From Aliidiomarina taiwanensis (GTDB taxonomy: Bacteria > Pseudomonadota > Gammaproteobacteria > Enterobacterales > Alteromonadaceae), in the NCBI RefSeq assembly GCF_003987015.1, contig NZ_PIPQ01000002.1, positions 372,001 to 436,000 on the forward strand: 64,000 nucleotides of DNA, read 5' to 3'. The notes below the pieces were generated by a model. It was not told the origin of the DNA and made no database searches. It saw only the letters and a list, made by a program, of their open reading frames with translations. Shown here piece after piece: positions 43,328 to 55,613 of this stretch (position 1 is its first letter; each line of letters starts with the position of its first letter). Both the position numbers and the translations under genes were made by a program.

Positions 43328-43362
43328 ACCTTCTTACCCTTCACCGTTCACTTTTCAAGCTT

Positions 43363-43378
43363 TGGCATACTTCATGCA
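43363..43378 (+). promoter_or_regulatory. Sigma-54 promoter for the flgF operon
   Basis: TGGCATACTTCATGCA has GG at 43364-43365 and GC at 43376-43377 with exactly 10 bases between. It lies 53 bases before flgF, just after the flgE terminator, so flgFGHIJ has its own sigma-54 start. Confidence 0.75.
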
Positions 43379-43430: not shown

Positions 43431-44174
43431 ATGGATAATTTACTGTTTATTGCTATGAGCGGCGCGAAAGAAAGCATGAACGCCATGGCGGTACGGGCAA
43501 ATAACTTGGCGAACGCCAATACCACGGGCTTTAAAGCCGACCTGCAGCAGGCGCGCGCCATGCAAGCCTATAACGAAGGTTTGCCAACGCGCGTGTTTGC
43601 CATGACGGAAACACCGGGGCAAAACTATGCCGATGGGGCTTTCCGCACGACAGGTCGCGACCTAGACGTTGCCGTGCGCGGCCCAGGTTGGATAGCGGTT
43701 ACCGATGCGGATGGCAACGAAGCTTACACTCGCAATGGTAACTTACAAATGGACGCAAACGGTATGTTGCAAACCAGCAGTGGGCAGCCGGTGCTGGGCA
43801 ATAACGGACCCATTTTCTTACCCGTTCCCATTACTAATATGTTTATCGGTGCAGATGGCACCGTGTCGGTCCGTCCTGAAGGAGCCCAAGCGAATGTGAT
43901 TGAAACCGTCGACCGCATCAAGCTTGTGAACCCTGTGAACCGTGACATGACACGTCGCGAAGACGGTTTATTCCGTATGAAAGACAACAGCTTAGCGCCA
44001 ATCGACGGATTAGTGCGTATTGAGCAGGGGGCCTTAGAAGGCAGCAACGTGAACCCTGTGGAAGAAATGACGCAAATGATTGCCCTACAACGCAATTATG
44101 AAATGAACGTGAAAATGATGAAGACAGCGCAAGAAAACGATCAGCGCTCAGAACGCTTATTAAGCATTGTTTAA
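43431..44174 (+). CDS. flgF: Flagellar proximal rod protein FlgF
   Basis: FlgF is a rod subunit. The 247-aa product has the N-terminal MDNLLFIAMSGAKESMNAMAV region with ANNLANANTTGFKADL, the DVAVRGPGWIAV strand and YTRNGNLQMDANGML. The C-terminus ALEGSNVNPVEEMTQMIALQRNYEMNVKMM follows. GAGGAG is 6 bases before the ATG. flgG follows after 36 bases. Confidence 0.96.
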   Translation: MDNLLFIAMSGAKESMNAMAVRANNLANANTTGFKADLQQARAMQAYNEGLPTRVFAMTETPGQNYADGAFRTTGRDLDVAVRGPGWIAVTDADGNEAYTRNGNLQMDANGMLQTSSGQPVLGNNGPIFLPVPITNMFIGADGTVSVRPEGAQANVIETVDRIKLVNPVNRDMTRREDGLFRMKDNSLAPIDGLVRIEQGALEGSNVNPVEEMTQMIALQRNYEMNVKMMKTAQENDQRSERLLSIV

Positions 44175-52274: not shown

Positions 52275-52694
52275 ATGTCAGTTTCAGGCTCAGAACTAAA
52301 ACAACTCATGATAGATACAGCAGCCGATGCCAGTGCCTATGCGGCGGAAGAGTTTGCTGCGACCCTCGACCAAAGCGTGGAGAGTCTAGAAACCGTCGAC
52401 CAACTTATTTTGCAAGCCCGGGAAAAATACGGCCAAGACATCCACAATAGCGAAATTATTTTTACCCTGTGCAATATGTTTGGTGCTTATGTGGGAGAAA
52501 TATTCAGGAACCAATATGGTGGTACCTGGGTGTATGATGCGTCAGATAACCAAGCGCCCTCAGTCTTTTTGCAAAAGGGTGAATATACGTTTGCTTTTGC
52601 AGGTATTATCTACCAGCGCTTAATCAATGACCAAACCTTAAGTGTGCGTCGATATTACGAAGAAGCGGTCACTAACGCAGTACCGAAGCAATAA
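52275..52694 (+). CDS. Uncharacterised 139-aa protein between flagellin genes
   Basis: I do not recognise this protein with confidence. It has no signal peptide or membrane segment. An acidic helical N-terminal half (LKQLMIDTAADASAYAAEEF, VDQLILQAREKYG) is followed by a more structured part: FTLCNMFGAYVGEIF, NQYGGTWVYD, and an end rich in Tyr/Arg (RRYYEEAVTNAVPKQ). The GAYVGE...GGTW pattern recalls small cytoplasmic domains of unknown function, but that is only an impression. AAGGG precedes the ATG. It has its own downstream terminator and no clear sigma-28 promoter, so it is probably not simply a flagellar class gene. Confidence 0.8.
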   Translation: MSVSGSELKQLMIDTAADASAYAAEEFAATLDQSVESLETVDQLILQAREKYGQDIHNSEIIFTLCNMFGAYVGEIFRNQYGGTWVYDASDNQAPSVFLQKGEYTFAFAGIIYQRLINDQTLSVRRYYEEAVTNAVPKQ

Positions 52695-53824: not shown

Positions 53825-53910
53825 GGATCTGAGCACCTAAAAAGGTGTCAAAATAGCAAACACTGAAATACGTTTCCTGTTGAGGATTCGGAATATAAAA
53901 GGGGGGACTT

Positions 53911-54729
53911 ATGTCTCTATATGTAAATACAAACGTGTCGTCATTGAATGGACAACGTCAATTGCTGAACTCAGGCAATGCCTTAAATACTTCTTTCGAG
54001 CGTTTATCATCTGGTTTCCGCATTAACAGTGCGGCAGATGATGCTGCGGGCTTGCAAATCACCAACCGCATGACCTCGCAAATTCAAGGTCTAAATCAAG
54101 CGGTACGTAATGCGCAAGACGGCATCTCTGTAGCACAGGTAGCGGAAGGTGCCATGCAAGAAGTAACTAATTCACTTCAGCGTATGCGTCAGCTTGCGGT
54201 ACAATCACAGAACGGCATTAACACCACAGCCGACCGTGCTGCGCTACAAAAAGAAGTATCAGCCCTTAAAACAGAAATCACGCGTATTTCTGAAACGACT
54301 GAATTTGCAGGCCAAAACTTATTAAGTGGTAGCTACAAAGGGATAAACTTCCTAGTGGGTGCAAATGCGGATCAAAACATTTCCATCTCGCTCAAAAGTG
54401 TTGCGCTAGGAAGCTTAGGAATTGCTTCATTGTCTGTTTCAAGTGCGGCAGGTGCCGCGACAGCATTAAAAAGCTTAGATGGTGCTATTTCCACTATCGG
54501 AGCGCAGCGTGCCGACTTAGGTGCTATCCAAAACCGTTTTCAGTCAACCATTCGTAACTTAACGAACATCTCTGAAAACGTTTCGGGCGCGCGCTCACGC
54601 ATCATGGACACAGACTTTGCAAAAGAAACAGCTGAATTGACACGTAACCAAATTATTCAGCAAGCAAGTACCTCTATCTTAGGACAGGCCAACCAACGTC
54701 CACAAGCGGCACTATCGCTTTTACGTTAA
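53911..54729 (+). CDS. Flagellin 3
   Basis: Filament subunit of 272 aa, same domain plan as flagellin 2. Differences are scattered in the N-terminal part (NVSSLNGQRQLLNSGNALN) and near the C-terminus (NISENVSGARS, QASTSILG, ending LLR instead of LLG). It carries the second copy of the 98-bp tract shared with flagellin 2. GGGGGGACTT precedes the ATG. Own sigma-28 promoter and terminator. Which of the three dominates the filament cannot be told from sequence. Confidence 0.96.
   Translation: MSLYVNTNVSSLNGQRQLLNSGNALNTSFERLSSGFRINSAADDAAGLQITNRMTSQIQGLNQAVRNAQDGISVAQVAEGAMQEVTNSLQRMRQLAVQSQNGINTTADRAALQKEVSALKTEITRISETTEFAGQNLLSGSYKGINFLVGANADQNISISLKSVALGSLGIASLSVSSAAGAATALKSLDGAISTIGAQRADLGAIQNRFQSTIRNLTNISENVSGARSRIMDTDFAKETAELTRNQIIQQASTSILGQANQRPQAALSLLR
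54427..54524 (+). repeat. 98-bp tract identical to one in flagellin 2 (copy 2)
   Basis: Partner of 53395-53492, offset exactly 1032 bases. It encodes the C-terminal half of the hinge and the start of the conserved RADLGA helix. Confidence 0.9.
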
Positions 54730-54751
54730 TAATCGGCAAGCCAAAGACTTC

Positions 54752-54782
54752 AAAATACCGAGCAGCTGCTCGGTATTTTTTT
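54752..54782 (+). terminator. Terminator after flagellin 3
   Basis: An almost perfect palindrome centred at 54765/54766 (AATACCGAGCAG with CTGCTCGGTATT) followed by seven Ts. It separates flagellin 3 from the downstream orphan promoter. Confidence 0.93.
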
Positions 54783-54808
54783 ATGCATCAATAAAAACTG
54801 GGTGGGGT

Positions 54809-54822
54809 GGCAATTTTTTGCC
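54809..54822. promoter_or_regulatory. GGCAA-N4-TTGCC inverted repeat before the orphan promoter
   Basis: GGCAA-TTTT-TTGCC, 8 bases before the -35 at 54831, is the second copy of the element at 53775-53788. Shared flanks (GGTGGCAA and TTGCCGRT) and matching distance to the promoter suggest a common function or a duplicated promoter region. Confidence 0.6.
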
Positions 54823-54830
54823 GGTGTGGC

Positions 54831-54857
54831 TAAAGTTTAACCAGTTGGGTCCGATAC
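54831..54857 (+). promoter_or_regulatory. Orphan sigma-28 promoter
   Basis: TAAAGTTT (54831-54838, a perfect -35), 11 bases, TCCGATAC (54850-54857). No gene of normal size follows: flaG starts 333 bases later and has its own sigma-28 promoter at 55074-55100. Confidence 0.85.
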
Positions 54858-54863
54858 AGAAAA

Positions 54864-55073
54864 TAAGTAAGAGTATATTGTAGTTTGTAGGAAAGACTGG
54901 CTAACCCGAGTAAGAGGTTGTAGGGGGGCACCCGGGTTAGCCAGCAGACAAACGTCAAAAAGTTGTCAAAATAGCGTGTTCACTGAAACACAGTATTAGC
55001 AAAGCAGGTATCATGCCAACACTTTACAAGTGGATAAAATTGCAATACCAAATAAACTTGCCACAATAAAATC
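54864..55073 (+). ncRNA. Putative sigma-28-transcribed non-coding RNA or flagellin leader remnant
   Basis: This is the main part of the 461-base gene-free stretch 54730-55190. After the orphan promoter comes a perfect 12-bp stem (54897-54908 with 54933-54944, CTGGCTAACCCG/CGGGTTAGCCAG) whose 24-base loop holds GGGGGG. Then comes the TGTCAAAATAGC (54964-54975) / CACTGAAA block also found in the flagellin 3 leader. An 18-codon ORF starts at 55013. I see no terminator before flaG, so the transcript could run on. It could be a small RNA, a long flaG leader or a relic of a lost fourth flagellin gene. Boundaries are inferred. Confidence 0.45.
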
Positions 55074-55100
55074 TAAAGTAATGAAGTATGGTGCCGATAC
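55074..55100 (+). promoter_or_regulatory. Sigma-28 promoter for flaG-fliDST
   Basis: TAAAGTAA (55074-55081), 11 bases, GCCGATAC (55093-55100), 90 bases before the flaG ATG. The leader has a TGCGAG/CTCGCA hairpin (55121-55140). Confidence 0.8.
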
Positions 55101-55190
55101 AGCTACATGTAGGGGTAGCTTGCGAGGGTTGTAGCTCGCAGGTAAATGAGCAAGCAAGTTCGCTTGTTGAAGAGGTGGGAGTTTATTGGT

Positions 55191-55613
55191 ATGAAAGTTG
55201 AATCCACAAACTTGTCCATGGGGGCGGAGCGCAACCAGCAGGCTGAACGTCAAGCACAGGACGTTGCCAAAGAGGATGCTGTTTCGATTTCTGTCGCAAC
55301 GGTTTCGTTGCCACGGCAAGATACCAAAAGCGTAACGCAACCGGAAAAAGCTCAACCGAAAGAGCAACCGCTGAGTGCGTTAGCTGATATTATTCAAGAA
55401 CTAAATGAAGCAATACCATTAGAAGCACGGCAATTGAAGTTCACGGTTGACGAAGCTGCGAATCGCACCGTTGTATCTGTCATCGACCAGGACTCAGGTG
55501 AAGTTATTCGTCAGCTTCCAAGTGAAGAAGCGCTTGAGTTAGCGAAGCGGTTGCGAGAGCAACAAGAAGGCGCAGAAAAGGCCATTGGTGTGCTTGTAAA
55601 CAGTATGGTATAG
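55191..55613 (+). CDS. flaG: FlaG, filament-length regulator
   Basis: FlaG proteins are small and affect filament length in polar-flagellated bacteria; the mechanism is not settled. The 140-aa product has a disordered Gln/Glu/Lys-rich first half. The FlaG domain has AIPLEARQLKFTVDEAANRTVVSVIDQDSGEVIRQLPSEEALELAKRL as its hallmark, here spread over about residues 74-121. I chose ATG 55191 with GGGAG 9 bases upstream; the frame is open to 55146. First gene of flaG-fliD-fliS-fliT. Confidence 0.93.
   Translation: MKVESTNLSMGAERNQQAERQAQDVAKEDAVSISVATVSLPRQDTKSVTQPEKAQPKEQPLSALADIIQELNEAIPLEARQLKFTVDEAANRTVVSVIDQDSGEVIRQLPSEEALELAKRLREQQEGAEKAIGVLVNSMV

Follow-up and report, generated by a model that had tools for sequence, protein, structure and literature searches.

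Organization of the flagellin-flaG interval

The window analyzed here is a 64,000-nt stretch of the Aliidiomarina taiwanensis genome (contig NZ_PIPQ01000002.1, positions 372,001 to 436,000, forward strand), in which an array of flagellin genes is followed by flaG. Between the last gene of the array and flaG, the annotated elements are as follows:

53911..54729, plus strand: flagellin 3 (PF00669 and PF00700)
About 54762-54786: terminator-like hairpin 3' of flagellin 3
54831..54857, plus strand: orphan sigma-28-type promoter (14/16), facing the putative RNA gene described below
55074..55100, plus strand: sigma-28-type promoter of flaG (13/16)
55194..55613, plus strand: flaG (PF03646, 72.0 bits)

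No plus-strand open reading frame (ORF) of at least 40 amino acids starts between the flagellin-3 stop codon (54729) and the flaG ORF, in agreement with an earlier, sequence-only reading of this DNA that had noted the lack of a normal gene after the first promoter. The other elements that it pointed out are also present, including a -35/-10 pair with 11-base spacing beyond the flagellin-3 terminator (TAAAGTTT-N11-TCCGATAC), a perfect 12-bp stem (54897-54908/54933-54944) with GGGGGG in its loop (54923-54928), and a separate sigma-28-like site for flaG. Within 44-64 kb, the plus strand has four sites scoring at least 14/16 against the sigma-28 pattern, as compared to none in each of 20 dinucleotide shuffles; because one of the four (56491) lies inside fliD, a score of 14/16 is not in itself proof of a promoter.

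Other features of the neighborhood were recorded as well. A 139-aa ORF (window 52275-52694, plus strand) lies between flagellins 1 and 2, with its counterpart in the same slot in three relatives (G007, G012 and G013), and its sole Pfam match, to DUF6278, is below threshold. The sigma-28-like site between fliD and fliS is a near-perfect palindrome, TAAAGTATCGGCG...CGCCGATAC, in G006, G009, G011 and G014, so that promoter and hairpin coincide (oriented coordinates L054 10403; L056 and L057 9556/9661; L061 9914). Runs of five or six C are located within the sigma-28 promoter spacer of one flagellin each in G007, G012 and G013 (oriented coordinates L055 4593; L058 3022; L059 3847).

The conserved minus-strand hairpin

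The 12-bp stem is part of a longer structure, given here with its associated elements as read on the minus strand:

54896..54945, minus strand: 15-bp hairpin (class 1), with arms 54931-54945 and 54896-54910 and a 20-nt loop, 54911-54930
54915..54930, minus strand: loop core UGCCCCCCUACAACCU, the likely pairing site, invariant in the nine rows of alignment A1
55003..55019, minus strand: sigma-54-like -24/-12 site TTGGCATGATACCTGCT (GG-N10-GC), with an equivalent 5' of the hairpin in 9/9 genomes
54884..54992, minus strand: predicted small RNA of about 109 nt, with a start placed 12 nt after the -12 GC and an end placed after the UCUUUCC run

A covariance model (R1) of the hairpin (54897-54944) gives strong matches (E <= 3.1e-19) in nine of the 17 genomes of the genus, always within the flagellin-flaG interval, 3' of a flagellin gene and 5' of the last flagellin or flaG. 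The model was built from eight copies, and G014, which was left out of the building, is recovered at E 3e-19; the exact loop core GGTTGTAGGGGGGCA is present in 8/17. In G009 and G011, the hairpin is found in tandem, as two copies 70 nt apart with both loops intact. The nine hairpin-bearing genomes are those with flagellins closest to the window's. The flagellins of the other eight are of about 50% identity, and these genomes have no strong R1 match, the weak ones being confined to G003 (E 0.27) and G004 (E 0.62).

When 395 genomes are searched with R1 at E <= 0.01, 10 have a match, namely the nine of the genus and G095, in which the match is a loopless hairpin and was judged spurious. A second model, R2, gives weak matches in G057 and G194, and a gene-order search of 394 genomes returns only the organism's own. 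The R1 family and gene-order searches used stricter filters, and weak relatives may therefore be missed. The exact 15-mer also occurs once in G174, in a stretch with no recognized flagellin-type ORF, and was judged a chance match there. A scan for related loci with FlaG gave a single locus, from a Ramlibacter record, which was left out of the comparison. A REP-like dispersed repeat was also rejected: there is one match in the organism's own genome, and in relatives there is one locus (doubled in G009 and G011) and one copy of the class 2 hairpin discussed below. Rfam 15 at the gathering threshold has no matches in the window or in seven relative loci, and the six sub-threshold matches from a permissive scan of 54700-55200 all end at or before 54823, with none on the hairpin. 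A search of the open-licence literature found no report of this RNA.

Comparison of the copies establishes that the structure is conserved, and on which strand. Compensatory changes in the stem among relatives had been set beforehand as a test by the sequence-only reading, and they are found: the 15-pair structure forms on the minus strand in 135/135 cells of the nine aligned copies, with double-sided changes in 10 of the 15 pairs (9/15 by RNAalifold). The covariation score is 0.733 vs 0.380 in shuffles, with 0/500 shuffles as high and slid controls at or below 0.183. On the minus strand, the 117 cells for 13 stem pairs of A1 comprise 103 Watson-Crick pairs, 14 G·U pairs and no mismatches, although two of the nine rows, those of G009b and G011b, are almost the same and the cells are not independent events; read on the plus strand, the same 14 non-Watson-Crick cells become A·C. 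From this pattern, 14 G·U and no A·C, it follows that the conserved RNA is that of the minus strand. On these comparisons, a conserved structured non-coding element is present between flagellin 3 and flaG. Its loop is consequently C-rich and complements G-rich leaders, and the GGGGGG previously taken to echo the GGGGGGA ribosome sites of flagellins 2 and 3 is on the opposite strand. The loop core of G014, a genome not included in A1, has one extra C.

The strand result bears directly on the earlier proposal of a FliA-dependent plus-strand RNA that starts near 54865 and acts via a G-rich loop on flagellin mRNA or an RNA-binding protein. The window itself is compatible with such a transcript, since the sigma-28 match is good (14/16, with none as good in 20 shuffles), its stem is nearly all Watson-Crick, and a plus-strand fold is also possible (z -2.85 for 111 nt). 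However, the promoter is missing from 8/8 hairpin-bearing relatives, where the best sites score only 8 to 11/16, and the stem changes track minus-strand pairing, with 14 A·C mismatches if read as plus-strand RNA. Strand-specific pairing and the absence of the promoter from the eight relatives together rule out this RNA as the conserved product, and the proposal as formulated is very unlikely. A small RNA that acts on flagellin or flaG mRNA is still plausible, but the strand and the sigma factor had been misassigned.

A short peptide encoded by the loop on the minus strand, RTG-CCC-CCC-TAC-AAC-CTC-CTT (M/V-P-P-Y-N-L-L), was also considered. All 11 copies have the RTG, and several reading frames are open for at least 20 codons. 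Nevertheless, the loop is invariant even at third codon positions, the residues past it track stem pairing and not a protein, no ribosome site precedes the RTG, and loop length changes by one base in two copies (G014 +1, window -1). The peptide was rejected on these grounds and is extremely improbable.

The sigma-54-like site provides a second conserved feature. TTGGCAY-N6-(T/G)GCW occurs on the minus strand 46-99 nt before the loop in all nine hairpin genomes (the one-base loosening, T/G, was needed solely for G012, and the GG-N10-GC spacing is kept), so that a -24/-12 element is in the right place for a sigma-54-dependent small RNA in 9/9. The strict form, TTGGCAYN6TGCW, has 15 matches in the organism's whole genome, as compared to 3 for the reversed control. 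Another strict match in the window (43362-43378, plus strand) is 5' of an ORF at 43431, presumably flgF-like, and serves as an internal control for the pattern.

Transcription from this site would begin, in G006 and G014, one base before a conserved GUCUG block. The hairpin looks as though it doubles as the terminator of the predicted RNA. The tails 3' of the GC-rich stem (UUCUUUUC, CUCUUUUUU, UCUUUCC and, in G007, CUCCUUACC) contain short or interrupted U-runs, and this weakness makes the predicted end uncertain; the RNA could alternatively run on to the flagellin-3 terminator, for a length of about 238 nt. Its C-rich loop is closed by a conserved stem, as in RepG/sX13-like RNAs. The hairpin is probably a small regulatory RNA, encoded on the DNA strand opposite to the one originally suggested.

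Complements of the loop in flagellin and flaG transcripts

Several stretches on the plus strand are complementary to the predicted RNA:

55108..55115, plus strand: UGUAGGGG near the predicted 5' end of the flaG mRNA, complementary to the loop (CCCCUACA)
55122..55139, plus strand: predicted flaG leader hairpin, with a loop that holds GGUUGUAG and is complementary to the RNA loop
53839..53857, plus strand: flagellin-3 leader stretch, complementary at 18/19 positions to the 5' part of the RNA (54957-54975)
53901..53906, plus strand: GGGGGG of the flagellin-3 ribosome site, a possible pairing site, included in the best predicted duplex (-19.2 kcal/mol)

The leader complementarity is itself established by comparison. 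The invariant loop core is complementary to UGUAGGGG, and every one of the nine genomes has this 8-mer in at least one flagellin or flaG mRNA, close to the predicted 5' end. It follows the sigma-28 -10 box at a near-constant distance and should therefore sit near the mRNA 5' end. The shorter GTAGGGG is found in 15 of 47 flagellin/flaG leaders (130 nt before the start), with at least one in each of the nine genomes. Outside the RNA gene it occurs 21 times in 326,016 strand-bases, and 15 of these occurrences are within 6,110 leader bases; it is absent from the 12 flagellin loci of the eight genomes that lack the RNA. Among the flagellin/flaG leaders of the window, only that of flaG has it. The nine genomes belong to one clade, so a single event may account for the RNA and the leader motif occurring together; in addition, the leaders are paralogues. 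The extended pattern CCGANA-N4-14-GTAGGGG is no commoner genome-wide than its reversed control (25 vs 29 in 16 genomes); in the nine RNA-bearing genomes, 14/18 matches are flagellin/flaG leaders.

Duplex energies are less selective. The best values in the window are -18.6 (flaG), -18.9 (fliD) and -19.2 kcal/mol (flagellin 3), and in G012 fliD reaches -21.4 vs -18.6 for the motif-bearing flagellin; by duplex energies alone, the proposed target leaders do not stand out. The flagellin-3 leader stretch at 53839..53857 is the best non-self match of the 109-nt RNA gene in the window (E 0.005, with the next best at 1.2). Because the start codon is about 80 nt further 3' than UGUAGGGG, direct blocking of the ribosome is unlikely. 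The flaG ribosome site of G005, TTGGGGGGCATG, has 9-base complementarity to the RNA loop (L053, oriented, flaG start).

A diverged copy of the hairpin, referred to here as class 2, is found in eight of the nine genomes, starting 6-63 nt after a flagellin stop codon. Five copies are detected by R1 at E <= 1.8e-7 and that of G013 at 0.024, and an unfiltered search of seven stretches gives 27.0 bits for the copy of G007 and 24.1 bits for that of G005. Pairing here is on the flagellin-sense (plus) strand (101 cells Watson-Crick, 14 G·U, none A·C and 21 otherwise mismatched), on which 95.9% of 98 cells are paired vs 83.7% on the other strand. These are sense-strand elements after a flagellin stop in eight genomes, a placement like that of the FliX/FlaX 3'-untranslated region (UTR) RNAs. 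The window has no class 2 copy, and its genome is the only one of the nine without it.

Class 2 loops hold AAAGGAGG or AAAGGGG, along with GGGGCA, which are complements of the class 1 CCUCCUUU and UGCCCC, although such complementarity is expected of any opposite-strand homologue and alone is no proof of pairing. Loop pairing is matched by none of 300 shuffled loops in G012, G013 and G007, and by 6, 15, 29 and 80 of 300 in G014, G006, G009 and G005, respectively. With the class 2 loops of G009 and G006 the window's altered loop pairs as well or better, and with that of G005 equally well. With results this mixed, the decay of the CCUCCUUU patch in the window alongside the loss of class 2 is only suggestive.

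It may be asked whether the G-rich leader motif and the flagellin 3'-UTR hairpins are instead sites for a CsrA-like protein, the minus-strand RNA being a mere terminator or incidental. The leaders contain GGGGA, several 3'-UTR loops contain GGA, and the leaders do not stand out by duplex energy. However, the loop of the window's predicted RNA is without GGA, which also led to the rejection of a CsrB-like CsrA sponge, with its repeated GGA in hairpin loops, and neither an invariant 16-nt loop nor a conserved sigma-54 site is expected of a bare terminator. A protein-site explanation is thus distinctly unlikely.

A possible place in the flagellar hierarchy

The model that appears reasonably likely is one in which a sigma-54-dependent small RNA, with its gene on the minus strand in the gap from the flagellin array to flaG, presents the C-rich loop of a terminator-like hairpin (UGCCCCCCUACAACCU). 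In certain mRNAs made with sigma-28, that of flaG in the window and those of flagellins and/or flaG in relatives, this loop would pair with UGUAGGGG close to the 5' end, and the bound mRNAs would be repressed until the end of the sigma-54 stage, during which the hook and basal body are made. We infer the transcription of the RNA, its ends, its pairing in the cell, and the direction and timing of its effect.

The orphan promoter may have a separate origin. A flagellin gene lies between the preceding flagellin and the hairpin, the slot of the orphan promoter, in G007 and G013, and G012 has in that slot, adjoining the RNA gene, a C-terminal flagellin match with three reported in-frame stops (G012:C1:128213-128635). 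This makes it likely that the promoter, which is unique to the window, is a relic, and the previous suggestion of a lost fourth flagellin is plausible to that extent. There is no flagellin coding remnant at window 54857 to 54896, and the G007 promoter region, compared by eye, is only weakly similar in sequence. The chances are about even that the promoter is only such a relic, with the hairpin belonging to a separate minus-strand RNA. If active, the promoter would produce an antisense of the RNA.

That possibility leads to a further model, which is on the unlikely side, in which sense and antisense hairpins derived from one ancestral element constitute a switch from sigma-54 to sigma-28. The sigma-54 RNA (C-rich loop, minus strand) would keep the late flagellin and flaG leaders off, and once sigma-28 is on, the flagellin 3'-UTR hairpin (G-rich loop, plus strand) would soak up the RNA and free the remaining leaders. 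In the window, the orphan sigma-28 promoter would stand in for the missing 3'-UTR copy by way of a full antisense of the RNA. The basis for this step is that the sole genome without class 2 is also the sole genome with an orphan sigma-28 promoter, a single coincidence (n = 1).

The proposed repressing sigma-54 RNA has partial parallels among known systems. The Qrr RNAs of Vibrio are sigma-54-dependent and about 110 nt long, and are thus similar in length and in predicted sigma-54 dependence; they differ in locus and loop, and the window has no Rfam match at the gathering score. RepG of Helicobacter pylori uses a C/U-rich terminator loop to pair with a run of G in the leader of an mRNA, at a relatively large distance 5' of the ribosome site, and its target, the chemotaxis receptor TlpB, is likewise motility-related (PMC8295292). 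In PMC8295292, RepG is described neither as sigma-54-dependent nor as encoded among flagellin genes, and what it targets is a G-repeat of variable length. In Xanthomonas, sX13 stem-loops with 4C/5C loops act on G-rich mRNA motifs, and the fliC mRNA level is altered in the mutant; sX13 has three hairpins and a different genomic place, and no sigma-54 site is claimed for it in that account (PMC3771888). The regulatory setting, as described, resembles that of the RpoN-class CJnc230 (FlmE) and FliA-class CJnc170 (FlmR) small RNAs of the Campylobacter jejuni flagellar hierarchy, but CJnc230 arises by processing of the flgE mRNA, and the targets that it represses are flgM and Cj1387c instead of flagellin leaders (PMC11187230). 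FliX of E. coli (PMC10578931) and FlaX of Vibrio cholerae (PMC12607845) are flagellin 3'-UTR small RNAs that lower flagellin expression. They resemble the plus-strand class 2 hairpin, known here from its sequence, in their placement; the main RNA differs in its opposite strand and its own predicted sigma-54 site. By analogy, its way of working would be most like that of RepG and sX13.

Many bacteria have several flagellin genes, and how these are ordered is poorly understood. More than one flagellin is present in about half of flagellated species, for reasons that are mostly unknown (PMC6299084). The RNA described here may help to time the building of the flagellum. If so, an RNA located among the flagellin genes, with complements confined to certain flagellin or flaG leaders, would provide a direct post-transcriptional link between the hook stage and the filament stage, and two homologous hairpins at work on opposite strands would illustrate the origin of an RNA and its antagonist from a single element.
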